A DNA stretch of 38,928 nucleotides from a virus, in the IMG/VR virus record IMGVR_UViG_3300030331_001891, positions 1-38,928 of that record; one strand, written 5' to 3'. The notes under the pieces were generated by a model. The model saw nothing but the letters and a program-made list of their open reading frames with translations. It was not told the DNA's origin and ran no database searches. The translations under genes and the position numbers were made by a program. Below, piece by piece: positions 6,811 to 38,928 of the stretch. Position 1 is the stretch's first letter. Every line of letters starts with the position of its first letter.

Positions 6811-6839
6811 TTGACATCGCAAGTTATTTTTGATATAAT
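6811..6839 (+). promoter_or_regulatory. Sigma70-type promoter P3 (ligase N-half)
   Basis: TTGACA (6811-6816), 17-nt spacer, TATAAT (6834-6839). The predicted +1, seven bases beyond, is 6846, the A of the ligase ATG, so a leaderless transcript is expected. There is no room for a ribosome binding site on an mRNA started here. Confidence 0.85.
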
Positions 6840-6845
6840 ATATAA

Positions 6846-7808
6846 ATGGAAAATATAAAAGAAAGTTTAAGAAGAGCAGCGATTGCATACTATAATGGAG
6901 AGCCTATCATGTCTGACGCAGAATTTGATAGACTAGCCGAGTTAGTAAATTATGAAGATGTTGGCGCATCTAGTAATGATAACCGTTATCCTCATGCCTT
7001 TCAAATGTTTTCCCTACAAAAAGTCTTTGATAATGAAATACATATCAAAGACCCGTTTAATAGTTATAAAGATACTGTAATTGTTAGTCCTAAGCTGGAC
7101 GGCGCTGCAGTATCTTTACTCTATGTAGGCGGCAAACTACACCGAGCCTTGACACGAGGAGATGGCAAGAAGGGACTGGATATAACAAGACAAATGGAAA
7201 CAATGGTTCCTAAAAACTTTGGATTAATGCATGGTGACTTGCCAGAGTATTTCCAAGTGACAGGCGAAGTAGTAGCACCAAAAACAATCAAAAACGCAAG
7301 GAATTATGCAGCAGGTGCTCTTAATTTGAAAGACATTGAGGAATTCAAACAAAGAGACTTACACTTTATTGCATATGGTATTACCCCTTCTCAAAAACCT
7401 AATTGGTCATGTGATTTACAAGAACTTAGTAAGTATGGATTTGATACAGTCATGGATAGTGATTGGACTCAATACCCAGATGATGGAGTTGTATTTCGAA
7501 TAAATGATAATACTGAGTTTGAAAGTAGGGGTTATACTTCTCATCACCCAAGAGGTGCTTATGCACTTAAACAAATACAAAAAGGAGTAATCACCACTCT
7601 TCTTGATGTAGTATGGAATGTGGGTAAATCAGGAGTAGTTGCTCCAGTAGCAATGCTAGAACCTGTAGATATTGATGGTGCTACAGTAAGCAAAGCAACT
7701 TTACACAATATAAGATATATAGAAGATATGGGCTTATACAAAGGTTGCAGTGTAGAAGTAATACGAAGTGGTGAAATAATACCAAGAATAGTTAGGAGAG
7801 TAGATTAA
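6846..7808 (+). CDS. ligA: NAD+-dependent DNA ligase, N-terminal part (adenylation and OB domains)
   Basis: A 320-residue protein that makes the ligase-AMP intermediate. Domain Ia is shortened but has AYYNGEPIMSDAEFDRL (bacterial YY...isDaEYD.L). The nucleotidyltransferase motifs follow: active Lys83 in SPKLDGAAVS, TRGDG, GEVV, ARNYAAGAL, DGVVFRIN and an AYALK motif. The OB domain (about 245-320) includes GKSGVVAPVAMLEP and SKATLHN and ends RSGEIIPRIV. It stops exactly where bacterial LigA would enter its zinc finger. The missing zinc finger, HhH and BRCT domains are in the gene at 9084-9845. T5-like phages are annotated with a two-gene NAD+ ligase, a precedent for a split enzyme. Confidence 0.93.
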   Translation: MENIKESLRRAAIAYYNGEPIMSDAEFDRLAELVNYEDVGASSNDNRYPHAFQMFSLQKVFDNEIHIKDPFNSYKDTVIVSPKLDGAAVSLLYVGGKLHRALTRGDGKKGLDITRQMETMVPKNFGLMHGDLPEYFQVTGEVVAPKTIKNARNYAAGALNLKDIEEFKQRDLHFIAYGITPSQKPNWSCDLQELSKYGFDTVMDSDWTQYPDDGVVFRINDNTEFESRGYTSHHPRGAYALKQIQKGVITTLLDVVWNVGKSGVVAPVAMLEPVDIDGATVSKATLHNIRYIEDMGLYKGCSVEVIRSGEIIPRIVRRVD

Positions 7809-8413
7809 TGGCAAATCACGTATATTTTAATGTTGACTTATCAGTAAGTGAGCATAGTAATAAAACCAATGAACTTACTACAGAGCTAGCTAGACTAGGA
7901 ACTATTATATCTAGCGAAACATCTCATGGTTGGACGGAGTATGATTCAAATTTATTACCCATATATTCTGTACCATTTGAAGAAGATAACTGGTACGACT
8001 GGGGTATTGAACATATGGGCGCTAAGTGGGTTTCTATAGAAGATTGGGACACAAGTGGTGTTTTTAGTGGACATTCTGCATGGAGTCCTATTTATCCATT
8101 AGTAGAAAACTTAGTAAGACATTTAGATGAAGTGTTAGACACACAAGTTTGGGCAAAGTTTACTTATGAAGATGAATTTAGAAACTTCATAGGTAAAGCT
8201 AGTATATATTCTCATAGGAGTATTGATGGAATAGAAGTCATAACAGACGTCGATGAATTAGATTCAGATGAAGTATATGCTTGGGTTTACGAACCTTTAG
8301 GGTTAGAAGAAATACCTGATGACTTTGAGTGGTATGAACCTCAAGAAAAACTAGAAGGATATCCCGCAGATGAGTGGTTAGATAATAAAGTTTATGACTG
8401 GTTCAGTGAGTAA
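7808..8413 (+). CDS. YubB/DUF1281-like acidic protein
   Basis: A 201-residue acidic protein starting MANHVYFNVDLS in a TAATG overlap. Its middle (WGIEHMGAKWVSIEDWD, then SGHSAWSPIYPLVENL) resembles the ferredoxin-like YubB/DUF1281 domain of plasmid and phage proteins, which has a W-G-x-K-W core and an AWSPP segment. The C-terminal third is very rich in Asp, Glu, Tyr and Trp (PLGLEEIPDDFEWYEP), which may mimic DNA or bind a basic partner. Function is unknown. It lies between the two ligase halves. Confidence 0.55.
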   Translation: MANHVYFNVDLSVSEHSNKTNELTTELARLGTIISSETSHGWTEYDSNLLPIYSVPFEEDNWYDWGIEHMGAKWVSIEDWDTSGVFSGHSAWSPIYPLVENLVRHLDEVLDTQVWAKFTYEDEFRNFIGKASIYSHRSIDGIEVITDVDELDSDEVYAWVYEPLGLEEIPDDFEWYEPQEKLEGYPADEWLDNKVYDWFSE

Positions 8414-8676
8414 TGAATATTAGTAGATGGTTAGAAAGTTGGGATAGACCCGATGATAGAACTTTGATGATACACAAAGAAACATCATTTTCTATCTTGT
8501 CGGGATTAATAACACAAGCCCCTCTAGTATTCTTTTCTAATTGGTTTATGTTAGATGTTATAGAAGTTAGTAGTTCTTTCACATTAACATCAGTAAACAT
8601 AGTTCTACTAACCATAGTAGGATATATAAGAGTATTTTATACTAGAAAGTATTTTTCAAATAGATACGATAAATGA
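8413..8676 (+). CDS. Two-pass membrane protein, 87 aa
   Basis: Starts in a TAATG overlap. Charged N-terminus (about residues 1-22), hydrophobic segments at about 27-45 (SILSGLITQAPLVFFSNWF) and 57-75 (TLTSVNIVLLTIVGYIRVF), then TRKYFSNRYDK. The layout of a Gly/Pro-containing first helix and a second helix ending R-x-x-x-T-R-K-x-F recalls a widespread family of small phage membrane proteins. Role unknown. It lies between the ligase halves and overlaps the next gene by ATGA. Confidence 0.6.
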   Translation: MNISRWLESWDRPDDRTLMIHKETSFSILSGLITQAPLVFFSNWFMLDVIEVSSSFTLTSVNIVLLTIVGYIRVFYTRKYFSNRYDK

Positions 8677-9041
8677 GTATAGGAAAATACAATCAAACTT
8701 ATTTTGATAATCACCCCGAAGAATGCGATAGAGATGGAGTTCTCTACGGGGTGGTTTTAGTCAATAAGAAAACATTTGAAAGAGAATGTATCAAAGTTGG
8801 CATCGCATCAGGTAAAGATTGGAGGCACATACTAAAGCGTAGTAAAGGTTTTAAGGGGTATGAAATTCGTATTTTAAAAACTTGGCACGCTCCATTATAT
8901 CTTGTATGGGCAGAAGAACAAGACCTCCATGAAAAGTACCAACATGACAAATATTCTCCCATGTTTAAGTTCGGAGGTCATACAGAGTGTTTCAAAATTG
9001 ATTCGTTGATTCTCCAGGACTTTCCAAAAAATAAATCTTGA
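8673..9041 (+). CDS. GIY-YIG-like nuclease (T5orf172/MUG113-like)
   Basis: A 122-residue protein with an LYGVVLVN strand, then CIKVGIASGKDW (equivalent to the YIG strand), a following basic helix (RHILKRS) and a later AEEQDLHEKY with Glu in the catalytic position. It ends KFGGHTECF, as in T5orf172/MUG113-type GIY-YIG domains (..gEwF/tEcF). Such domains occur in phage nucleases and free-standing homing endonucleases. It is directly upstream of the C-terminal ligase gene, so it could have driven the split. Its stop codon lies inside the -35 of promoter P4. Homology is moderate and no cleavage activity can be claimed. Confidence 0.6.
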   Translation: MSIGKYNQTYFDNHPEECDRDGVLYGVVLVNKKTFERECIKVGIASGKDWRHILKRSKGFKGYEIRILKTWHAPLYLVWAEEQDLHEKYQHDKYSPMFKFGGHTECFKIDSLILQDFPKNKS

Positions 9042-9066
9042 CATGGCAACTGAAATTTGTTATAAT
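9038..9066 (+). promoter_or_regulatory. Sigma70-type promoter P4 (ligase C-half)
   Basis: TTGACA (9038-9043), 17-nt spacer, TATAAT (9061-9066). The predicted +1 is near 9073, giving an 11-nt leader to ATG 9084 or 23 nt to ATG 9096. The spacer and -10 context (ATTTGTTATAATATA) match P5 and P6 closely. The upstream gene ends at the TGA within TTGACA. Confidence 0.85.
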
Positions 9067-9083
9067 ATACATAATAAAAAAAG

Positions 9084-9845
9084 ATGAGAGAAGAAATGAA
9101 AGAAATTATTCCACCAACTAATTGTCCATCATGTAATGATGAATTAGTGTGGGAAAAAGACCAACTTTTCTGTCATAACACTAAATGTAGTGGAAAAACA
9201 AGTAAAAAGATTGAGCATTTTGCTTCAACTCTCAAAATCAAAGGTCTCGGGCCTAGAACAGTAGATAAATTACAGTTAATTGATTACTTTGATTTATATG
9301 AAATGCCTCTTGAAACTATGATAGACGCACTTCAGTCCGAGAAACTTGCAGTAAAACTATATAGAGAGATTCAAGCTAGTAAGAGTGTTGACTTAGTTCA
9401 ACTTCTACCAGCTTTCTCGATAAAGTTGATTGGTCGTTCTGCATCAGCTAAACTCTGTGCACACCTTCATCACATTGATGATATTACAGAAGATACTTGC
9501 AAAGACGCAGGACTCGGGCCAACAGCTACACAAAACTTATTAGACTGGTATTACGAAGAATATGCAGACGGTTTAGATAGATTACCTTTTAGTTGGAAAA
9601 CAAAAGAAAAACCGAAGACAGAAGTTTTATTAAAAGGAACAGTATGCATATCAGGTAAACTAAAAAGCTATAAAACTAAGGCAGCCGCAACAGAAGTATT
9701 AGAAAAAATGGGCTACCTTGTAAAAAGCAGTTTGACCAAAGATGTAAATATTCTAGTCAACGAAAGCGGAATAGAATCTGCAAAAACACGAGCAGCCCAA
9801 GATAGGGGTGTTAAAATAATAACAAACTTAAAAGAAATAATATAG
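9084..9845 (+). CDS. NAD+-dependent DNA ligase, C-terminal part (zinc finger, HhH, BRCT)
   Basis: A 253-residue second ligase polypeptide. A Cys4 zinc finger (C14, C17, C30, C35) opens it. A helix-hairpin-helix region follows (IKGLGPRTVDKL; later IKLIGRSASAKL and AGLGPTA), then a BRCT domain (about residues 180-253: KGTVCISGKL, then KAAATEVLEKMGYLV). This is the domain order that should follow the OB domain in one-piece LigA. It contributes DNA binding and would pair with the 6846-7808 product. ATG 9096 is an alternative start with GAGAGAAG upstream. No adenylation motif is present, so alone it cannot ligate. Confidence 0.9.
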   Translation: MREEMKEIIPPTNCPSCNDELVWEKDQLFCHNTKCSGKTSKKIEHFASTLKIKGLGPRTVDKLQLIDYFDLYEMPLETMIDALQSEKLAVKLYREIQASKSVDLVQLLPAFSIKLIGRSASAKLCAHLHHIDDITEDTCKDAGLGPTATQNLLDWYYEEYADGLDRLPFSWKTKEKPKTEVLLKGTVCISGKLKSYKTKAAATEVLEKMGYLVKSSLTKDVNILVNESGIESAKTRAAQDRGVKIITNLKEII

Positions 9846-9854
9846 GACATAAAT

Positions 9855-10580
9855 ATGGCATTACCAAAATGGACAGACGAAAGAACACAACAGTTAGTGG
9901 ACTTCGTCGGCAACACAAGCCCTATTTCTCAAGCTATGGTGGCAGACGCCGCTGAAGATTTAGAAACTTCTACAAGAAGTGTATCTTCAAAGCTAAGAAA
10001 AATGGGATATGATGTAGAGCTTGCCTCTTCAGTTTCTAACAGAACTTTTACTGAAGACCAAGAAGCTACTTTATCACAATTTGTACAAGACAATTCAGGT
10101 CAGTACACATACGCAGACATTGCTGCTTCTTTCGAGAATGGGCATTTTTCTGCAAAATCAATACAGGGAAAAATTCTTTCTATGGAATTAACTTCTCATG
10201 TAAAACCAGCTGAGAAGCCAGAATCTGTTAGAACTTACTCTCCCGAAGAAGAAGCAACATTTACACAAATGGTAAACGACGGGTCTTTTGTTGAAGAAAT
10301 CGCAGAAGCTCTCGGTAAATCTGTTAATTCTATCAGAGGTAAGGCGCTTAGCTTACTTAGAAGTGGCGATATTAACGCTATACCTAAGCAAAAAGAAACT
10401 AAAGGTTCAAGCAAAGCTGATCCTTTAGCTGAGGTTAGTGATATCCAAAACATGAATGTTGAAGATATTGCTGATGAAATTGGCAAAACCGTAAGAGGCG
10501 TAAAAACAATGTTAACCCGTAGAGGTTTAACTTGTGCTGATTATGATGGCGCTGCTAGAAAAGAGAAAGCATCTAGCTAA
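9855..10580 (+). CDS. Multi-repeat HTH (Myb/SANT-like) DNA-binding protein
   Basis: A 241-residue protein built of about four related helical units. WTDERTQQLVDFV...SVSSKLRKMGY; FTEDQEATLSQFV...AKSIQGKILSMEL; YSPEEEATFTQMV...NSIRGKALSLL; and a last, shorter unit NVEDIADEIGKTVRGVKTML. Each has an acidic first helix and a last helix that looks like a recognition helix. The unit is shared with the protein at 5731. Multiple HTH units suggest binding to extended or repeated DNA, as a regulator or architectural protein; no target is known. It is followed by a strong hairpin, so it closes the P4 operon. Confidence 0.65.
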   Translation: MALPKWTDERTQQLVDFVGNTSPISQAMVADAAEDLETSTRSVSSKLRKMGYDVELASSVSNRTFTEDQEATLSQFVQDNSGQYTYADIAASFENGHFSAKSIQGKILSMELTSHVKPAEKPESVRTYSPEEEATFTQMVNDGSFVEEIAEALGKSVNSIRGKALSLLRSGDINAIPKQKETKGSSKADPLAEVSDIQNMNVEDIADEIGKTVRGVKTMLTRRGLTCADYDGAARKEKASS

Positions 10581-28265: not shown

Positions 28266-30158
28266 TTATGCTTCTAATGTAGCTATTCTGGCTTCTAATT
28301 CTTTGATTGTTTCTATCAAAAGTGGTACTAATTTACCATAAGATACACCTTTTAGTCCGGGAGATGATGTTGTAACAACTTCTGGTACTACAGCTTCTAC
28401 TTCCTGAGCAATTAAACCCATATGAGTATCGGTTCCTCTATTTTCTGTATCTTTCCAAGTGTGATATACTCCTCTAAGTTGTTTTAATTTTGTTGTTGCA
28501 TTACTAATTGTTGTAATATTTTCTTTTTCTGTTATATCTGATATATCATTAAAACCTGTATTATAAGAAATATAACCTGTATAAGTATTACCAGCAGCAA
28601 AATGCAAATCATTTAAAGATGTTTTCAGACAGTTATATTGCCCTGCTGAGTATCCTGGAAGATTACCACCTATTTCAATATAGTGCGTTGCTGATTGATT
28701 ATGTGTTAACTCATCGACTCTTAACACAGAACCTTTTCCATACGAACTATAAGTAGAACCTCCGTTATTTTCTACTATAAATTTGCCTTCATGATTGAGA
28801 TATGCATGTCTACGGTTAGTACCACTAGTTGCTGTATAGAAATCTAATGCTGCCTTTTTTGAGGCAGCTGTTTCGTTATAGGCACCCTCTCTACGGCATA
28901 CAAGTTTTGCTGCATGACCTTGACCACTATGTGTTCGATGTTCAAAAATTAAAGAACTAGTTGCGGCACCATCGTTATATCTATCATTTTTAATAAGCAC
29001 TCCAATATCTCCCTGATAAACACTGCCATAAACTGCTAATTTAGAATATGAACTATAGTCGGATCCGTTTCCAATATGAGCGGTATCAATTACCTGCAAT
29101 TTAGCAACTGGAGTAGTTGTTCCGATTCCAACATTGCCTGAACTATCAATACGCATTCTTTCTGTATCGTTAGTTCCAAATGTTAATGGATATGCTTGCT
29201 TGTTAGTAATAGCTAATTGATTATTCACAACACCTTGTATTCTTCCAAAGACACCCTCACTACCTGTAGTTTTAAAGTCTATTATTCCACCAGTTGAATC
29301 TGCTAAAGAAGCTACTACATATCCACTAAAATTTGCAGGTGAAGTATCGCCTAAACCTAAATTACCATTAGCATCAACACGCATTTTTTCGGATCTGCCA
29401 GAACCTGTTAAAATACTTACAAAACCTGTAGAAGTTACTGCCATATTATCAGCACTGTGATTATAAGCAATTTGACCTCTATATTGCGCATCTCCACTTG
29501 TACCATCTGCAAATAATAGATAATTCCATTGGCCAGTTCCAGTACTTGCTAAAGTTATACCTCCTTCGCCTGTTCCTGTACCAACTACTAAATTGTCTCC
29601 TCCTGAATAATAGTTTGTAGGAGTAGTAACTCCAATACCAACATTACCTGAACTATCGATGCGCATTCTTTCAGTTGTTGTATCAGGGTTGCCATTTGTT
29701 CCACCAGTTCTTAAAATAACAGCACCAGAAGCACCATTAGCTGAAAGTGTTAAATGAACATTAGAGCCACCTGATGCTATAAATGCTGTAGCATCTGAAT
29801 CGCCTACTGTAAGTCTTTTTGTTGGTGAAGTACCAATTCCAACATTTTCACTACTATCAATCGTAATTGCTGTAGCATCTGCACTTGAACTTATACCTGA
29901 TATTGCAACAGTAGAAAATGATAAAGTACCTGAACCATTAGTTACAAGTGCTTGACCACTTGAGCCATCTGATACATTTAATTGAGCTATACCGATGGCA
30001 TTATCGGCTATTTGGTCAGATAAAGCGTCTGCAGCTATATGTCTAGCTAAAATTTGGTTATTTGCTATTTTTGTTGCGTCAATTGAATTATCAGCAATAT
30101 TTGCTGATGTTAATGAGTTTACTGCTACTACGCTTGTTGTTATCTTAGTTAATGCCAT
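28266..30158 (-). CDS. Tail fibre with S74 chaperone domain (paralogue 1)
   Basis: A 630-residue fibre. Residues 1-10 (MALTKITTSV) are a likely attachment or cap segment. About five decapeptide repeats follow (IADNSIDATK type). The shaft contains ERMRIDSSGNVGIGTTTP repeats typical of long phage fibres. The C-terminal 91 residues, from Ser540-Asp541 (SDITEKENIT), form an S74 intramolecular chaperone with THMGLIAQEVEAVVPEVV and VSYGKLVPLL. The family self-cleaves at Ser-Asp after trimerisation. It is last in the minus-strand fibre operon. Receptor binding is inferred for the segment just before the S74 domain. Confidence 0.88.
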   Translation of the reverse strand: MALTKITTSVVAVNSLTSANIADNSIDATKIANNQILARHIAADALSDQIADNAIGIAQLNVSDGSSGQALVTNGSGTLSFSTVAISGISSSADATAITIDSSENVGIGTSPTKRLTVGDSDATAFIASGGSNVHLTLSANGASGAVILRTGGTNGNPDTTTERMRIDSSGNVGIGVTTPTNYYSGGDNLVVGTGTGEGGITLASTGTGQWNYLLFADGTSGDAQYRGQIAYNHSADNMAVTSTGFVSILTGSGRSEKMRVDANGNLGLGDTSPANFSGYVVASLADSTGGIIDFKTTGSEGVFGRIQGVVNNQLAITNKQAYPLTFGTNDTERMRIDSSGNVGIGTTTPVAKLQVIDTAHIGNGSDYSSYSKLAVYGSVYQGDIGVLIKNDRYNDGAATSSLIFEHRTHSGQGHAAKLVCRREGAYNETAASKKAALDFYTATSGTNRRHAYLNHEGKFIVENNGGSTYSSYGKGSVLRVDELTHNQSATHYIEIGGNLPGYSAGQYNCLKTSLNDLHFAAGNTYTGYISYNTGFNDISDITEKENITTISNATTKLKQLRGVYHTWKDTENRGTDTHMGLIAQEVEAVVPEVVTTSSPGLKGVSYGKLVPLLIETIKELEARIATLEA

Positions 30159-30168
30159 AATTTATCCT

Positions 30169-30423
30169 TTACACTGCGCTTGAAGTTGCATCAGCCGCTC
30201 TTTCTACAACCTTTAAATCATATGCTTGTTGTACTTGTGCAGCTTCTCCTACTGCTAATGCAATTTCATTTTCATTGCAATGAGCAATAAGTTTTTCTAA
30301 AATTATTTTCTTTGATATTTCTGCTCTTACATCAAAAGCGTTTTGAATCCATTCTTGAACATCGGCCATTTCAACCTCTGCTGATTTAAATTGTGTGTCT
30401 GTTATTTTTATTGTTATATCCAT
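30169..30423 (-). CDS. Small hypothetical protein within the fibre operon, 84 aa
   Basis: Read on the minus strand, start at 30423 (MDITIKITDTQFK) with GGAT purines upstream, end at 30169. Mixed alpha/beta with an Ala-rich C-terminal helix (ALAVGEAAQVQQAYDLK). It lies between two fibres and is the only non-fibre gene in the array. It could be a fibre-assembly factor or a baseplate adaptor; nothing in the sequence decides this. Confidence 0.65.
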   Translation of the reverse strand: MDITIKITDTQFKSAEVEMADVQEWIQNAFDVRAEISKKIILEKLIAHCNENEIALAVGEAAQVQQAYDLKVVERAADATSSAV

Positions 30424-30428
30424 AATTA

Positions 30429-32021
30429 TTATCCTATTAAATATCCTCCAAAGTTCATGTAATCATCATTTGACCCAATATATGTAGAATTACTAGAATC
30501 TGCCTTAAAATTTATTTGTACATAGTCATTCGCTGCTAATGACAACATTTGCACTCTTGTACCAAATTCATACTCACTACCTGTACCTGTTGTATCTAGT
30601 CTTAAATGAATATCATTGTTTGAATTTGCTATATTTTTACTTCCATTTTTCATTATCCAATATCTATAAACATCATTGTTGTTGTTGCCGATTGCACCCC
30701 AAAAGAATAGATATACACCTGCAACTGGTGCAGTAAATCTTCCATTGCTTGTACTGTAATGACTTCCAACGTTTACATAAGTATTTCCAAAAATTACATC
30801 TGCATTACTTGTACCTGAAGTAGCCCCATAAGCATGAAAACATGGTTGGCTTGGCATAGTCACAGCTTTATTACCAGAACCAATCTCAATAACATTTGCT
30901 GCTAAGTTATGGTAAATTTTTGATACAGTATTTTCATTCGTAAGTTTAAAAGTATTATTTTCCCCTGTATCTATAATACCAATACCTCGGTCACTAGCTA
31001 ATTGTTTAACTGTTAAAGTTCCTAAGCTATTATAAGCAGTTCTTGTAGTATGGCCAATATGAAAATTACCAGCAGCAACTACATTAAATCTTTCTGCAGA
31101 ATTTGCATTAGAATACCAAATTAAATTATCTGAGGGGTCACTATACATTACCCACTTTCTAGTTCCACCATGTCCTAATCTTATACCTACATTACTATCA
31201 TCTTTTGCTTCAATGCCTAAAAAGGCTTCTCCGTTTGAGTGGTCTCTCAGAGTTACAAAACAATTATCCATTGCAGATGTAGAGTTTAAAAATAAGTCTC
31301 CATCTGTACTAATAAACATTTTTTCAGTAGCACCTGTAGCTGGGTCTGTTGTACCAGTGACAAGATTTGAACCCGTTAAAAAGCTAATGCCACCTGTAGA
31401 ATTTACATTACTTATAATCTGAAGTTTATTATCTGATAATCTTACAGCTCCTTCTGTATAATCGCCATCTTGTTTAAACCAAAGTTGTGGGTTATCTCCT
31501 TCATCATTATTATCTTCATCAGCTTGAATAATAACAATAGCGTCTCCTGAGTTTCCTGATGATATATGAAGTAGCCCATCTGGGTCATTCGTTCCAATAC
31601 CAACTTCTGCAGAGTTATTTACGAACATAACATTTGTATTATCAGGTGATTGAATAATTGTATTTGAACCACTTGCAGTTATCCCATCTGCACCAATATC
31701 ACTTACTAAAGCTTTCTTTAGATTATTTGAATCTGAGGTATCTCCTATAAGTAAAAAGTCTCCACTCGCTGCTGTAACAGTTGAAAGTCCAGAAATAACA
31801 TTACTATGCATATGTCTATGTTCTATACCATCTGAAACTATTTTTGCTCCAGTTACATTATTTGCTGCAATCATGGTAGTAGTTATACCACTATCCTGAA
31901 CTAGAGTTCCAGATATGGCATTTGTTGCTATATGAGTAGCTGTTATAGCATTATCAGCAATAATTGTTCCCGATATTGCATTTGTTGCTATAAGTTCTGA
32001 TTGTACCTTGGTTCGTGCCAT
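30429..32021 (-). CDS. Tail fibre ending in a C1q-like domain (paralogue 2)
   Basis: A 530-residue fibre. MARTKVQSEL plus about six decapeptide repeats (residues 11-70), then SGDFLLIGDTSDSNNLKK, which is shared with paralogue 4. The shaft has AEVGIGTNDPDGLLHISSG units. Unlike its neighbours it has no S74 domain. The last 130 or so residues carry GRFTAPVAGVYLFFWGAIG and end DYMNFGGYLIG, the pattern of C1q/TNF-type trimerisation domains. These form stable trimers without a cleaved chaperone and could bind the host surface. Confidence 0.82.
   Translation of the reverse strand: MARTKVQSELIATNAISGTIIADNAITATHIATNAISGTLVQDSGITTTMIAANNVTGAKIVSDGIEHRHMHSNVISGLSTVTAASGDFLLIGDTSDSNNLKKALVSDIGADGITASGSNTIIQSPDNTNVMFVNNSAEVGIGTNDPDGLLHISSGNSGDAIVIIQADEDNNDEGDNPQLWFKQDGDYTEGAVRLSDNKLQIISNVNSTGGISFLTGSNLVTGTTDPATGATEKMFISTDGDLFLNSTSAMDNCFVTLRDHSNGEAFLGIEAKDDSNVGIRLGHGGTRKWVMYSDPSDNLIWYSNANSAERFNVVAAGNFHIGHTTRTAYNSLGTLTVKQLASDRGIGIIDTGENNTFKLTNENTVSKIYHNLAANVIEIGSGNKAVTMPSQPCFHAYGATSGTSNADVIFGNTYVNVGSHYSTSNGRFTAPVAGVYLFFWGAIGNNNNDVYRYWIMKNGSKNIANSNNDIHLRLDTTGTGSEYEFGTRVQMLSLAANDYVQINFKADSSNSTYIGSNDDYMNFGGYLIG
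31812..31991 (-). repeat. Six decapeptide repeats, fibre paralogue 2
   Basis: Residues 11-70 of the 30429-32021 fibre form six ten-residue units in register, three of them IATNAISGTI, IADNAITATH and IATNAISGTL. The pattern is [IV]-A-x-N-x-[IV]-x-x-x-[HLK]. They correspond to 30-bp imperfect DNA repeats. Confidence 0.8.
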
Positions 32022-32022
32022 A

Positions 32023-33975
32023 TTACTCTTCCAATTTTGCTATTCTAAGTTCTGCTGCATCTATTTTTACATGCGCTTCTTTTAGATCTGCTTCGAGTTC
32101 TTGTATTGCTTTTACTAATACAGGTACTAATTTTTCATACTTCATACTATATATTTTTCCATCAGGAGATAAAGCATAAGTTAAATTAGTTTTATTATCT
32201 TTATTATATCCTGCGGCTTCTTCTAAAACCTCAACATCTTGTGCCTTAAATCCTATGTCTAGTTGGTCTTCTTTATGTGTGCCATCATGTGTAACTGTAA
32301 GTAAATCTGTGTCTGGATTTTTATCCCAGTCTACATAACTTGACCTTTTATCCCATCTAAACGTATAAGGTTGCAAACTCTTTACAAAATCTAATCCTAA
32401 ATCTAATGCTGTAAAATCAGTTTTATCTCTTTCATCTGATGCTACTGATAAAGAAACCTGACAATTAAGAGAAGTAATAGCAGTATCTCCTATACAAGCT
32501 ATATTACTTTGTGAAGTAATTTGTCCTCCTGGTTGACCCGCATTACCTGCTCTATACCCAACCCCAATATTATTAGCGCCTGTTGTAACATTTTTAATAG
32601 TATTAGTACCTAAAGACACATTAAAAGACCCCGTAGTACAGTCCTCTAAAGCATCAACACCTATGGCTGTATTGTAACCATTACCTGTTGTTGCACTTGT
32701 TCCTGCACGAGTTCCTACAAAAGTATTGTTATGTGCACTAGTTTGAGCATCACCAGCTTGACTACCTATGATTGTGTTTGAGCCACCAGATGTAATATTG
32801 TATCCTGCATTTCTTCCTATACAGGTGTTGTGGTCATTACCTGACATAGTGTTACCTGCACCATAACCTATACACGTATTCCAACCCCCTGTTGTGTTGG
32901 TTGATAAAGCATAGTTTCCGACGGCCACATTATATTGTCCCGTGGTTATATTCATACCAGCTCTATATCCGAGGCCTACATTGTGTATTCCTGATGTTAC
33001 ATCTTCTAATGCTTCATATCCTACTGCAACACAAGAATCTCCACTAGTTAAATTATTTAATGCTCCATAACCTATAGATGTATTACCACTTCCATCTGTT
33101 ATATCAGCTGATGTGGCTTTAATTTCTCCGTTTACATGGAGTTTTTGTGAAGGGCTACTCGTACCAATTCCAACATTTCCTGACCCATTAATCCGCATTC
33201 TTTCTGAACCTGCTGTAGAAAATCCAAGTATATTAGGATTAACATTAAATATTCCTGTATCAGCATCATCGTGAAATGCGTATGCTGGTGCAGCAGCATC
33301 TTCTCTTCCTGATAAAAATCTATCGTTTTCTGCTCGTATTGTTCCATGTACATTAAATTTAGCGTTTATTGTTGATGACCCAATTCCAACATTTTCACTG
33401 CTATTAATAAAAATTGCGTCTGCATCTGCACTTGAATTTATACCTGCTACTCCACCAGCTTCTGCTCCCCATGATATATCTGTACCATCTGATTTAAGTA
33501 CAGTGCCATTTGAACCTATTGATAAAGCTGCAGGGTCTCCTGCACTATCTCCATATATTATACTTCCACGAGCAAGTGAAGCCATTTTTGCAAGTGTAAC
33601 TGCGTTGTCTCCTAGGTCTGCGGTAACTATTGTTCCGTTCACTATACTTGCACTTGTTACACTATTTGCTGCTAGTTGGTCTGCTCCAACGGCATCATCA
33701 GCTATTTTTGCTTGTGTAACTGCATCGTTATTTATTTTTGCTGTTTCTATGGCTGAATCTGCCATTTGTGTTACAGTAATTGTATTCTGTGCTATCTGAG
33801 TAGCAGTTACATTGTTTTGCGCAATATGTGTAGATGTTATAGCATTGTCAGCCACAAGAGTACCTGACACAGCATTTGTTGCTATGTGCACAGCAGTAAT
33901 CGCATTATCAGCTATGAGTGTGCCTTGTATTGCGTTTATTGCTACTAGTTCTGCTGGTATTGTTGTTCTTGCCAT
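32023..33975 (-). CDS. Tail fibre with YadA-like repeats and S74 domain (paralogue 3)
   Basis: A 650-residue fibre. Twelve decapeptide repeats (residues 11-130) are followed by a shaft with GSERMRINGSGNVGIGT. Residues 297-476 are a run of about 20- to 24-residue repeats of the type IGYGALNNLTSGDxxVAVG, similar to YadA head or Hep_Hag repeats. The S74 domain starts at Ser513-Asp514 (SDERDKTDFT) with DIGFKAQDVE and is longer (138 aa) than in the other copies. The C-terminus ends LEE, and its codons carry the ribosome binding site of the next gene. Confidence 0.88.
   Translation of the reverse strand: MARTTIPAELVAINAIQGTLIADNAITAVHIATNAVSGTLVADNAITSTHIAQNNVTATQIAQNTITVTQMADSAIETAKINNDAVTQAKIADDAVGADQLAANSVTSASIVNGTIVTADLGDNAVTLAKMASLARGSIIYGDSAGDPAALSIGSNGTVLKSDGTDISWGAEAGGVAGINSSADADAIFINSSENVGIGSSTINAKFNVHGTIRAENDRFLSGREDAAAPAYAFHDDADTGIFNVNPNILGFSTAGSERMRINGSGNVGIGTSSPSQKLHVNGEIKATSADITDGSGNTSIGYGALNNLTSGDSCVAVGYEALEDVTSGIHNVGLGYRAGMNITTGQYNVAVGNYALSTNTTGGWNTCIGYGAGNTMSGNDHNTCIGRNAGYNITSGGSNTIIGSQAGDAQTSAHNNTFVGTRAGTSATTGNGYNTAIGVDALEDCTTGSFNVSLGTNTIKNVTTGANNIGVGYRAGNAGQPGGQITSQSNIACIGDTAITSLNCQVSLSVASDERDKTDFTALDLGLDFVKSLQPYTFRWDKRSSYVDWDKNPDTDLLTVTHDGTHKEDQLDIGFKAQDVEVLEEAAGYNKDNKTNLTYALSPDGKIYSMKYEKLVPVLVKAIQELEADLKEAHVKIDAAELRIAKLEE
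32548..33087 (-). repeat. YadA/Hep_Hag-like beta-roll repeats
   Basis: Residues 297-476 of paralogue 3. About eight units share the core N-x-x-(I/V)-G-x-x-A-(L/G) followed by T-T/S-G. Gly-Tyr-Ala-Gly positions recur every 20-24 residues, as in trimeric autotransporter heads that form left-handed parallel beta-rolls. The unit borders were set by eye. Confidence 0.7.
33191..33346 (-). repeat. Fibre module copy A (156 nt)
   Basis: Aligns without gaps to 38375-38530 over 156 nt. About 21 mismatches were counted by eye (roughly 87 percent identity). It encodes GTIRAENDRFLSGRED and AYAFHDDADTGIFN in paralogue 3. The two fibres are otherwise different around this block. Confidence 0.85.
33586..33945 (-). 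repeat. Twelve decapeptide repeats, fibre paralogue 3
   Basis: Residues 11-130 are twelve ten-residue units in unbroken register, such as IADNAITAVH, VADNAITSTH and IADDAVGADQ. This is the highest copy number in the window. DNA repeats of 30 bp would allow slippage or unequal recombination. Confidence 0.82.
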
Positions 33976-33976
33976 A

Positions 33977-36148
33977 TTATCCTTCTAGTGTTTCTAATCT
34001 TGATTTTAAATCGTTTATTGTAGTATCTTGTTCTTTAATTGCATTTACTAATAGTGCTACAACAGAACCATAATCCATTGCATATGCGCTATTATAATTA
34101 TCTGTTCCATCATCTTCATCTTCATGATATATAACTGTTTCAGGTATTATATTTTCTACTTCTTGAGCAATAAATCCAAACTTATACCCATTTTTTGAAA
34201 CATGTTCTTGAACTTCATTTGTGCTATTTACAGTTTGAAATCTTTTTCCTGTTAACTGTTTTACCATTGATAAAGCATTGTCTATTGTTGTAATATTTTT
34301 CTTTCTTCTTCTATCAGAGCCCGTAGCATATCCACCATCACTTCTTGTTGTAACTGAAAAGTCTGAGCCTGATGTTGTTGGATAACTAGCTGAACTTATG
34401 TTGGTTCCATGGATTCTCAACTCTGATTGAGTACTTGAACTAGAACTATAAGGTGTTGCGTTCATTATACTAAGACTTGGGTAGTTAGCCCATGTTCTAT
34501 CTATAGCTATACCTTGATAAGTAAATAGTGACCCATTTCTAGAAGTACCAGCACCTGCGCTTGAAGTATCAACTCTACCACATATTTGCAGTGCATGAGC
34601 TTCGCCATCTAAACTGAAGCCTGGAGCCTTAGCATAAAACTCTATTGAGCCAGATTCTTGGTTGTTTGAACCAACCATTGTTGAACAACCAATTCTTCCA
34701 TAATAATTATGAGCTCCAGCAGTGTCTCCACCACCAAAATCAATAGCACCTAATTGATAATTTGATCCCGCATAACCTATTGCTTCAATGGACATTTTAG
34801 CAAGATAAGTACTTACATTACCAACCCCACTTCTTTTTGTTGCAACATGTAATCTATGAGTTAGATTTGGCAGATATGTATAATTGTTTTGTAAACCAAT
34901 TGCAACACTACCGCCATCTGGTTGTAAATACTGATTATAAGCGGTGGCAGTACCATCTACCCTTTGAACCTGTGACCATACATGTCCATCACTGGCTATT
35001 CCATGTACTATACCATAATCACCGCCAACATTGGAATCTTTTTTAAGCATAGCAAAATGACAAGTAGCATTACCTAGACCAGGTGGATCGTAGTTTTTAT
35101 TTTCTACTAAACTTAGTACAGCATTAGGACTAGTTGTACCAAGTCCTACTCTACAATCTCTACTTGATGAAGAAGCACTATTTTGTAATAATTTAAATAC
35201 TACTTTGTCTTCGTCATCGTCCCACCTTGCTCCCAGTGTAATAGCACCACCATAAGCTTCACCTACAGATTTCATGTAAGAGCCTTCGGTATTATTATTA
35301 TCGTAAAAATTTAATCTTGCAGTACCGTTATTACTTGTTGCAAAAGTTATTACCTCTGAAGCATCACCGTAGTTTCCAAGTTGTATGTCTGTTACAGGAC
35401 TATTTGTTCCAATTCCAAGACGACCTGAAGCATCAATACGCATTCTTTCGCTATTATTAGTATTAAATAAAAAAGCATGATTTGTCTGAGTTCCTACTAG
35501 TCCAACATTAGCTCCTGAATCATAGCTAGATTGAATTTTGGTAATTACTGTACCATTACCAGCAGAAAACAAGCCTATAGCTTTATTATCAAAACCAACA
35601 TTATTACCTTCTCCAGCCCAAGCATTTTTGACTTGTAAAGTTGGATTTTCATTTATTGCTGTGAGTGTTTTTGTTAAATCAAGTTCATGTGCGGGACTAC
35701 CAGTTCCAATTCCAACATTTTCACTACTATCAATCGTGATTGCTGTTGCGTCTGCACTAGAAGATATGCCTGCAACAGTTGCTAGTGCAGTTATTCCACT
35801 AATTGGTACTTTCTTTAAATTATTTGAATCACTTGTATCTCCAATAAGTACAAAGTCTCCAGCAACTGGTGTTACTTCTGTCTGTGATGAAATCATTGCT
35901 TTATTTAGATGATTGGTCGTTATTACGCCATCAGCTATTTTATCTGCTTCGATTGCGTCATCTGCTATTTGAGTTACTGTGATTGTGTTTTGAGCGATAT
36001 GTGTTGCTGTAACTGCATTATCTGCTATGAGTGTGCCGGACACGGCGTTTGTAGCAATATGAACTGCTGTAATTGCGTTATCTGCTATCAGTGTGCCTTG
36101 TATGGCATTGACTGAAACAACATGTGATGAAACTGTTGTTATTGCCAT
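33977..36148 (-). CDS. Tail fibre with S74 chaperone domain (paralogue 4)
   Basis: A 723-residue fibre, the longest complete one. Seven decapeptide repeats (residues 11-80), then AGDFVLIGDTSDSNNLKK, a long shaft with GIGT/NSERMRID units, and a receptor-binding candidate region rich in Gly, Ser and Tyr before the S74 domain. The S74 domain starts at Ser611-Asp612 (SDRRRKKNIT) and contains KFGFIAQEVENIIPETV. It ends LEG-stop, and GAAGGATAATATG overlaps the next start. It encodes an uncommon acidic insert (YHEDEDDGTD) inside the S74 domain. Confidence 0.88.
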   Translation of the reverse strand: MAITTVSSHVVSVNAIQGTLIADNAITAVHIATNAVSGTLIADNAVTATHIAQNTITVTQIADDAIEADKIADGVITTNHLNKAMISSQTEVTPVAGDFVLIGDTSDSNNLKKVPISGITALATVAGISSSADATAITIDSSENVGIGTGSPAHELDLTKTLTAINENPTLQVKNAWAGEGNNVGFDNKAIGLFSAGNGTVITKIQSSYDSGANVGLVGTQTNHAFLFNTNNSERMRIDASGRLGIGTNSPVTDIQLGNYGDASEVITFATSNNGTARLNFYDNNNTEGSYMKSVGEAYGGAITLGARWDDDEDKVVFKLLQNSASSSSRDCRVGLGTTSPNAVLSLVENKNYDPPGLGNATCHFAMLKKDSNVGGDYGIVHGIASDGHVWSQVQRVDGTATAYNQYLQPDGGSVAIGLQNNYTYLPNLTHRLHVATKRSGVGNVSTYLAKMSIEAIGYAGSNYQLGAIDFGGGDTAGAHNYYGRIGCSTMVGSNNQESGSIEFYAKAPGFSLDGEAHALQICGRVDTSSAGAGTSRNGSLFTYQGIAIDRTWANYPSLSIMNATPYSSSSSTQSELRIHGTNISSASYPTTSGSDFSVTTRSDGGYATGSDRRRKKNITTIDNALSMVKQLTGKRFQTVNSTNEVQEHVSKNGYKFGFIAQEVENIIPETVIYHEDEDDGTDNYNSAYAMDYGSVVALLVNAIKEQDTTINDLKSRLETLEG
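35909..36118 (-). repeat. Seven decapeptide repeats, fibre paralogue 4
   Basis: Residues 11-80: seven ten-residue units from VSVNAIQGTL through IADDAIEADK. Units two and three (IADNAITAVH, IATNAVSGTL) are identical in protein to those of paralogue 3. Confidence 0.82.
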
Positions 36149-36149
36149 A

Positions 36150-37631
36150 TTATCCCTCTAATGTTTCTATTCTTGCTGTTAGTGCGTCTATTTTAGCGTC
36201 TGCTTCTTGTAATGCTTTAATTAGATAAGGTGTTAACTTTCCGTAATCAATAGACCAAGGTTGTTCTGTGACATCATCTCCTCCCTCTCTAACTACATCA
36301 GGAATAATAGTTTTTAATTCTTGTGCAATCATACCTACTTCATGATGGTCATTTCTTTTCCAATCAAATTCACGAACTTTTACATTTTTAATAATATCTA
36401 ATTGTGATGAAGCATCTACAATATTTTTCTTTAATCTTTCGTCTGAAGCTGTGTTGAAACTAACTGAAGTTCCTGATGCTGCTGTAATTGAACCAATAGC
36501 ACCACCACTATCAGTCATGTATACAAATGAAGCACTTGTAGCATCATTATCATTAGAAAAACTTAATTTCATAACTACATTTGCTAAACCACAAGAAACA
36601 TCAGTATCTTCAAAAAATACAGTACCATTTGTAATAGAATTAGCACTAGCATAAAGTCTGTGTGGATAAGTTGGATTTGAAGTTGTGCCAATTATAACCG
36701 TGCCATTAGTATTAATACGCATATCTTCGCCTTCTGTATTATTAGTACTAAAATTCATATACCCTGAATTTCTGTTAAAGCCTATATAACCTAAATCATT
36801 ATCTGTAGCATCACCAAATCTAACTCTAGCATCTGAATTAGTTGCAGCTTCTAGTCTTAATTCAGCATCACCACTTGCTGCTTTTGCATGAAGTATTGTT
36901 GCTGGACTACTCGTTCCTATTCCAAAACTGCCACCATTGTCCATAACAATATTGCCATCAGTTTTAAATCTTAATTTGTACGCATCATTTGGCCCAATAT
37001 AAAGTTCATCTCCTGAAGCAGCTAATATTTGAATAGCATCAGCACCACCATCTTTAATTGATAAAGATGAATTAGTATCTGTATTTATTACTACATTGCC
37101 ATCTTCTCCAACTTTAAATAAAACATTATTACTTGCATCAACACCTGTTTGGTTTTTTCCTATTACAAATACTTGGTCAGTTGCACTATCATTTGAGTCT
37201 ATATTTATTCTTAGAGAATTAGGCGTATTTATTGCAAAGTTTTGTGAGGTTGAAGTTGCTATGCTTCCTGCTGCTAAAGTAAGTCCATTAACTGTGCTGT
37301 TAAAAGTAGCTGCACCTGCTTCTGACATATCAAGGGTAAGAGCAGTTATAAGATTACCGCCACCATCATCTCCTTGGAATATAATGTCTTTATCATCAGC
37401 TTCATTAATGAAAAACAAATGACCAGTATTATTTTCTATTTTACTATTTGAGCCATCATGTTTTATGCCTAAATCAGCACTTGCACCTAATAAAAGATTT
37501 TTATTATCACCTAAAGCAACTGTACCTGCAAATGTAACATTTTCACTACTATCAATAGTTATAGCAGTTGCATCGCTTGAGTCTGAGACTCCTGTGTTTA
37601 ACATATTTCTTACTACTTTTTGTAATGCCAT
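36150..37631 (-). CDS. Tail fibre with S74 chaperone domain (paralogue 5)
   Basis: A 493-residue fibre. Its N-terminus (MALQKVVRNMLNTG) lacks the decapeptide repeats of paralogues 1-4, so its attachment partner may differ. SDATAITIDSSENVTFAG is shared with other copies, followed by a glycine- and asparagine-rich shaft (DNKNLLLGASADLGIKHDG). The S74 domain begins Ser396-Asp397 (SDERLKKNIV) with EVGMIAQELKTIIPDVV and SIDYGKLTPYL. It is the second gene of the visible operon. LEG-stop-TATG junction with paralogue 4. Confidence 0.88.
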   Translation of the reverse strand: MALQKVVRNMLNTGVSDSSDATAITIDSSENVTFAGTVALGDNKNLLLGASADLGIKHDGSNSKIENNTGHLFFINEADDKDIIFQGDDGGGNLITALTLDMSEAGAATFNSTVNGLTLAAGSIATSTSQNFAINTPNSLRINIDSNDSATDQVFVIGKNQTGVDASNNVLFKVGEDGNVVINTDTNSSLSIKDGGADAIQILAASGDELYIGPNDAYKLRFKTDGNIVMDNGGSFGIGTSSPATILHAKAASGDAELRLEAATNSDARVRFGDATDNDLGYIGFNRNSGYMNFSTNNTEGEDMRINTNGTVIIGTTSNPTYPHRLYASANSITNGTVFFEDTDVSCGLANVVMKLSFSNDNDATSASFVYMTDSGGAIGSITAASGTSVSFNTASDERLKKNIVDASSQLDIIKNVKVREFDWKRNDHHEVGMIAQELKTIIPDVVREGGDDVTEQPWSIDYGKLTPYLIKALQEADAKIDALTARIETLEG

Positions 37632-37632
37632 G

Positions 37633-38928
37633 TTATCCTTCTAACTCCGTTATTCTTGCTTCTAGTTCTTGTACTGTTTTTACTAGTAGCGGAACTAATT
37701 TACTCTGGTCTAATTCTTGCATTTCTTCGCCATCTTTTTCTCCTGAAACAGCTTCAGGCACTATTTCTTGTACTTCGTGTGCTAAGAAGCCATCAACTGT
37801 TGTATCTGCATCAGCTATAAAATTAAATCTAGCTGGTTTTAATTTTTTAAGTCTTTCAAGACCATTAAATACATAATTAACATTTTCTTTTAATCTGTAA
37901 TCTGAAGATGTGTTATAAGCTGTTGATGAGCCACTTGTAGTAATTGAGCCAACTGTTCCATTATCATTATAAAAAGTAATAGGTGTTCTTGAGTCTGTAA
38001 GTCCATCTGCACCCACAGCAATACCTCTCGTACCTGAATCTAATTCAACAACAAGCCTATGCACTCCGACATTAACTGGAGATGAAGTGGTTTGATTAAT
38101 TAATACATTACCTGAACTATCAATACGCATTTTTTCAGCACCATTAGTACCTGTTCCAAAAGTCATGCTTGTACCTGCTGTACCTATTGAACCAGTAGTA
38201 GTGTTATCTTTTCTTAAAAGTATAATTATTCCATCAGAGCTTGTTCTATTACCTAAGAAACTTACACCACCATCATTGGTAGCTACAACAGCACCCTCTG
38301 CTGTAATATCTACACCTGCTGTATTGTTTTGATTGTGTGTGGTTTTGTTCATCAAAATATTGCCTTCACTATCAATACGCATTCTTTCTGTGCCTGAAGT
38401 AGAAAATCCAAGTATATTTGATGCTACATTAAACATTCCTGTATCAGCATCATCATGAAACGCGTATGCTGGTGCAGAAGCATCTTCTCTACCTGCTAAA
38501 AATCTTTCATTTTCTGCTCGTATAGTGCCAGCAACATTCAACATAGCATTAGGACTAGTCGTTCCTATACCAACTTTACCTGAAGAATCAATACGCATTC
38601 TTTCTGTTGAGCCACCAGTAGCTATAACAAACTCATTTTCACTTCTTAAACCTAAAGCTGTATTTGAACCACCTGAAGCTAGTAAAGAACTTGTTTGACC
38701 TATAAAGCCATAACTAGAACCTGCTGCTTGTAATCTAAAAGCAGCATAGGATTGTGTTGTAGCATCAAAATTACCATATAAAGTATTTGCAGGTGATTTA
38801 AAAATAAAGTTACCATCAACATCTAAAGGTGCTGAAGGACTACTCGTTCCTATTCCAACATTTCCTGACCTATTTATACGCATAGCCTCACTTGTAGAAT
38901 CAGGAGTTGTTGCAGTTTGGAAAGATAT
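37633..38928 (-). CDS. Tail fibre with S74 domain, 5' part outside the window (paralogue 6)
   Basis: Open through the right edge: codons upstream of the Met at 38883 (ending TSEA) read without a stop and match the shaft pattern, so that Met is not the real start. The visible 416 residues plus 15 include several RMRIDSSGNVGIGTTSP units and the module shared with paralogue 3. The S74 domain is the last 90 residues (SDYRLKENVN ... DGFLAHEVQEIVPEAV ... KLVPLLVKTV). The C-terminus ends ELEG. First of the visible fibre operon; the promoter lies outside. Confidence 0.88.
   Translation of the reverse strand: MSFQTATTPDSTSEAMRINRSGNVGIGTSSPSAPLDVDGNFIFKSPANTLYGNFDATTQSYAAFRLQAAGSSYGFIGQTSSLLASGGSNTALGLRSENEFVIATGGSTERMRIDSSGKVGIGTTSPNAMLNVAGTIRAENERFLAGREDASAPAYAFHDDADTGMFNVASNILGFSTSGTERMRIDSEGNILMNKTTHNQNNTAGVDITAEGAVVATNDGGVSFLGNRTSSDGIIILLRKDNTTTGSIGTAGTSMTFGTGTNGAEKMRIDSSGNVLINQTTSSPVNVGVHRLVVELDSGTRGIAVGADGLTDSRTPITFYNDNGTVGSITTSGSSTAYNTSSDYRLKENVNYVFNGLERLKKLKPARFNFIADADTTVDGFLAHEVQEIVPEAVSGEKDGEEMQELDQSKLVPLLVKTVQELEARITELEG
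38375..38530 (-). repeat. Fibre module copy B (156 nt)
   Basis: The counterpart of 33191-33346, with the same length and about 21 mismatches by eye. It encodes GTIRAENERFLAGRED and AYAFHDDADTGMFN in paralogue 6. The copies lie about 5.2 kb apart in the same orientation, so recombination between them could delete or duplicate the fibres in between. Confidence 0.85.

Follow-up and report, generated by a model that had tools for sequence, protein, structure and literature searches.

A Two-Subunit NAD+-Dependent DNA Ligase and a Conserved GIY-YIG-like Gene between Its Halves in an Uncultivated T5-like Phage

Split and Fused DNA Ligases in Phages

In phage T5, the DNA ligase is annotated as two genes, ligA (T5.116) and ligB (T5.117), each with an annotated promoter before it. 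The two genes stand about 200 bp apart with no gene between them, in the order PC4-like gene, ligA, ligB, D5, helicase. For phage Stitch, the A and B subunits were reported to be both required for nick sealing (PMC4319617). A homologous pair has been deposited as a structure (PDB 9hu3 and 9i5i) with chains A and B, of which one bears the name DNA ligase subunit B; over its matched part, chain A shows 100% identity to Providencia phage vB_PreS_PR1, and a search for literature on this two-chain structure found no open paper. The fused, bacterial-type LigA of the large phages Vibrio Aphrodite1, Serratia Haymo, and Cobetia Carin-5 has the same domains in the same order but is one unsplit protein of 624–669 residues.

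Another group of described systems bears on the locus reported here. Proteins of the T5orf172 type are known as homing endonucleases that lie beside essential genes, and Barth et al. described boundaries of genetic exchange that are marked by such nucleases (PMC10448857). Furthermore, T5-like genomes carry site-specific nicks, the purpose of which is unknown (PMC3517423).

The Ligase Genes of the Window

The DNA analysed here, referred to as the window, is a fragment of an uncultivated T5-like phage, 38,928 bases long, with a T5-like replication module. A megablast of its first 25 kb against phage records returned zero matches, which means that it has no close cultured relative. The genes follow one another as a D2-like gene, a PC4-like regulator, ligA, three small genes, ligB, a D5-like regulator, and a DnaB-type helicase, and farther downstream there are ORFs that read, as judged by eye, as primase, DNA polymerase, and a D10-like helicase. 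The D5-like gene (9855..10580, plus strand; PHROG 323, 2.6e-45) fixes the synteny with the T5 replication genes through the ligB-D5-helicase order, and the PC4-like gene and ligA precede it as in T5.

The ligA gene (6846..7808, plus strand) encodes domain Ia, an adenylation domain with the K83-x-DG motif, and an OB-fold, and ends before the zinc finger. Its product matches the Pfam families DNA_ligase_aden (3e-29) and DNA_ligase_OB (2.1e-24), PHROG 3359 (5.6e-101), and chain A of PDB 9hu3, with 1.5e-69 against the 9hu3/9i5i entries. In the alignment, K83-x-D85-G86, E141, and K242 are invariant. In each of the 14 aligned two-subunit ligases, arginine (R218 in DGVVFR) takes the place of the motif IV lysine, so the kinetics may differ. 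The ligB gene (9084..9845, plus strand) encodes a C4 zinc finger, HhH, and BRCT. The zinc finger and BRCT are sub-threshold in Pfam; the protein is clear in other profiles, namely PHROG 3498 (6.7e-56), the full LigA model TIGR00575 (1.1e-32), and the LigA chains of the PDB; it also matches 9hu3/9i5i (2e-26) and the last ~260 positions of full LigA models. The zinc-finger cysteines C14, C17, C30, and C35 are invariant across 14 homologues.

The first-pass annotation had placed the two ligase halves at these coordinates, divided exactly at a domain border and with three genes between them. All of this holds: the ORFs are there, each half has its own profile matches, and three genes lie in the gap. 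On TIGR00575, LigA ends at profile position 378 and LigB begins at 384; on the fused PHROG 3869, the corresponding positions are 381 and 387. The cut thus sits in the linker between the OB-fold and the zinc finger. The T5 proteins are ~43% (LigA) and ~33% (LigB) identical to those of the window over nearly their full length, with the same domain split, gene order, and separate promoters; the window differs in having three genes, including a GIY-YIG-like one, where T5 has none. With a high degree of confidence, the two genes can be read as a T5-type two-subunit NAD+-dependent DNA ligase whose products would assemble into one working enzyme, the activity of this pair being predicted.

Assembly of the two products in trans, also proposed in the first-pass annotation, appears well supported by analogy with the PR1 pair, whose deposited structure has two chains divided at the same boundary, the sequence having diverged from that of the window pair; such assembly is not new. 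The evolutionary distances of LigA and LigB are correlated with r = 0.876 (LigA-D5, 0.748; LigB-D5, 0.820), which is weak and not decisive evidence for contact, since the neighbouring PC4 correlates with LigB even more (0.933). Subunit A would bind NAD+, carry the adenylated lysine, and supply the OB-fold; subunit B would contribute the zinc finger, HhH, and BRCT, the domains with which a one-piece LigA encloses nicked DNA. Made from separate promoters, the subunits would combine into a single functional ligase that serves replication and nick sealing.

The Nuclease-like Gene before ligB

The last of the three genes in the gap (8673..9041, plus strand) encodes a protein of 122 aa that was initially described as resembling a GIY-YIG-type nuclease. 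The protein matches the PHROG 681 endonucleases at 3.6e-12. It gives zero Pfam family matches itself; two of 12 relatives match PF10544 (T5orf172), the best at 6.7e-4. Its structural model (pLDDT 82) has the order strand-strand-helix-strand-helix expected for the GIY-YIG kind: two strands carry the tyrosine and the K/Y-x-G motif, followed by a helix with the arginine and a helix with the glutamate. Residues of catalytic type or in these motifs (Y25, K41-V42-G43, R56, E82, and H86) are invariant in 64 rows. Comparison of the model with PDB folds gave no match at E <= 0.001; rank 2 was the UPF0213 protein 1zg2, a GIY-YIG protein (E 0.35). By profile, the product is likely an endonuclease of the T5orf172/GIY-YIG kind, a GIY-YIG-clan protein of the T5orf172/MUG113 type. 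The T5orf172-domain homing endonuclease tcgC of phage ICP1 shares with it the GIY-YIG-like motif order and PHROG 681, the two being 32% identical over 80% of the protein. The window protein is distinguished from T5orf172 homing endonucleases by its length of only 122 aa, its fixed place before ligB, and strong purifying selection throughout its clade.

In 63 non-identical marine relatives with complete genes, a gene of this type occupies the ligA-ligB gap. The distance from its end to the ligB start is 33–55 bp in these relatives, save for two called starts that overlap, and in 58 of the 63 unique loci its TGA stop overlaps the ligB promoter in one and the same register, supplying part of the TTGAC box. 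The median dN/dS of the nuclease gene is 0.056, the lowest of the five genes tested (PC4 gene, 0.067; D5, 0.101; ligA, 0.108; ligB, 0.152; each value is a median from a simple counting method applied to one set of 198 pairs). The gene is present in 98 of 111 loci that were scored, and no near relative whose gap is complete lacks it. These frequencies are not unbiased, because the searches that supplied the relatives ranked them by their similarity to the window, in half of the cases to the nuclease itself; many of the contigs are short. The sporadic presence among close relatives that is expected of a free-standing homing endonuclease was not seen. The constant site and register, the conserved residues, and the low dN/dS are unlike a sporadic homing gene and suggest a resident, selected gene with long vertical residence.

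A competing explanation is that the nuclease is an ordinary free-standing homing endonuclease that re-homes into the gap and carries the neighbouring cargo genes with it. In its favour, the family is T5orf172-like, the stretch from ligA to the nuclease is hypervariable in gene content (0 to ~1.7 kb), much like the boundaries of genetic exchange described elsewhere (PMC10448857), and the uncultivated relatives L012–L020 and L045 lack the nuclease gene. However, besides its near-constant presence at one site, in one register with the ligB promoter, and its dN/dS, the lowest of the five genes, its distances track those of the neighbouring D5 (r = 0.81), and no second copy was found in the window. 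Mapped onto the D5 tree, the presence of the nuclease requires three changes, such as a single gain plus two losses. Re-homing is a possibility to be taken seriously, yet a doubtful one.

Rather than a selfish homing gene, the nuclease may be a domesticated one that works with the ligase encoded beside it, for example by making or processing site-specific single-strand nicks that LigA/LigB reseal; we consider this unlikely. A nuclease beside a ligase would fit the site-specific nicks of T5-like genomes, but this link is speculative, since T5 has nicks without a nuclease gene in its ligA-ligB gap. If the link held, the gene would possibly be a candidate for the T5-like nicking activity. In any case, a nuclease-like gene that lies in register with the ligB promoter and is more constrained than the ligase itself is a candidate for testing the domestication of homing nucleases in phages.

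Origin of the Split

The first-pass annotation attributed the split to the insertion of a GIY-YIG mobile nuclease that broke a whole ligase gene in two. A T5orf172-like gene does sit between the halves in the window, and the family is known for homing beside essential genes, as noted above. Nevertheless, the identical split occurs without any nuclease in T5-like phages that stand well apart from the nuclease-bearing clade. T5 itself, which agrees with the earlier statement that T5-like phages are annotated with two ligase genes, and Aeromonas phage Mru1 have no gene in the gap; the gap of Vibrio phage 234P1 contains one other small annotated gene and that of Vibrio phage BBMuffin three hypothetical genes, all with the same split and order. 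Among the uncultivated relatives, L012–L020 have a gap of 84–87 bp, L045 one of less than 100 bp, and L024 a split ligase, in each case without a nuclease in the gap. The same split with the nuclease absent, an observation that the first-pass annotation had itself named as speaking against its proposal, is thus what was found, except that the nuclease is common inside the clade of the window. Moreover, the nuclease does not sit at the domain junction but lies upstream of the ligB promoter. The insertion account is refuted by these loci, and we regard it as extremely improbable: the split is older than the arrival of the nuclease in the gap.

Relatives of the ligA half were found by tblastn in 1229 phage records and those of the ligB half in 970. 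A phage ligase tree with 17 split and 11 fused members places every split ligase on one side of a single branch, so that one change is needed (support 88/100, 92% of bootstraps; the branch is not starred in the tree, and several fused rows are long-branched). One ancient fission is the simplest reading of this topology, and the simplest account is that a fused ligA was divided once as the T5-like phages branched off; that the change ran from fused to split is judged from the ligases of bacteria and other phages, which are fused. In the ancestor of T5-like phages, this single early fission would have cut the gene at the OB/Zn linker; the nuclease-like gene would have reached the gap later, beside the ligB promoter, and would then have been inherited there in the marine clade. 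The T5-type ligA/ligB split is old, already known, and standard in T5-like phages. A striking-looking split gene thus turns out to be ordinary for this group and not to be caused by a nuclease; the unexpected point is that the nuclease gene is a constant, strongly conserved neighbour of ligB in a large marine group.

That the halves are instead exons joined into one polypeptide by a self-splicing intron, or by an intein, is hardly credible: although splicing occurs in the ICP1 terminase and tape-measure genes, which lie beside homing genes (PMC10448857), each ligase half has its own promoter, start, and stop, the ligA-ligB gaps range from <100 bp to >2 kb with unrelated contents, an Rfam search found no intron in the window, and the homologous pair was deposited as two chains.

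Promoters, Cargo Genes, and Other Features

Both ligase genes are preceded by strong sigma-70-type promoters of the exact form TTGACA-17-TATAAT, at 6811..6839 (ligA) and 9038..9066 (ligB) on the plus strand. The TGA stop of the nuclease gene (9039–9041) lies inside the −35 hexamer of the latter. The first-pass annotation was right that each half has a near-identical promoter of its own, but this is not special to the ligase: six near-identical plus-strand promoters occur in the window (2561, 5695, 6811, 9038, 13674, and 19588), and because they share sequence including the A-rich upstream stretch, the likeness of the two ligase promoters is uninformative. The common pattern is an A-rich stretch, TTGAC(A/T), N17, and TATAATAT, which gives the impression of a single strong promoter type used repeatedly. 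The ligB promoter of L012 carries the AAAAAATAGTTCTTGACA stretch as in nuclease-bearing relatives; since L012 is nuclease-free, the nuclease adjoins, just upstream, a promoter that exists without it.

The two other genes in the gap are variable cargo on the plus strand. The first (7808..8413) encodes a 201-aa protein with no match in Pfam or NCBIfam, and homologues in relatives are 32–48% identical where ligase A is 85–90% identical. The second (8413..8676), absent from many relatives, encodes 87 aa and is probably a small membrane protein, as judged by eye from its hydrophobic segments. Between ligA and the nuclease, the interval 7808–8676 and its counterparts form a hotspot in which the number of small, unrelated genes runs from zero to several: 12 of the 63 relatives have no gene there, and others have up to ~1.7 kb. 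The variable cargo beside the nuclease resembles, by analogy, the nuclease-marked exchange boundaries of Barth et al. (PMC10448857). In L180, L183, L184, L186, and L187, a further block of genes lies between the nuclease and ligB. L186 and L187 have extra genes on both sides of the nuclease, before ligB, which by eye are radical-SAM, PP-loop, carbamoyltransferase-like, and SGNH-like; this block is perhaps a sugar or DNA-modification cassette.

Elsewhere in the window, on the minus strand at 28266–38883, six long ORFs follow one another in tandem; by eye only, they look like tail-fibre paralogues whose N-termini are similar and whose C-termini are chaperone-like.
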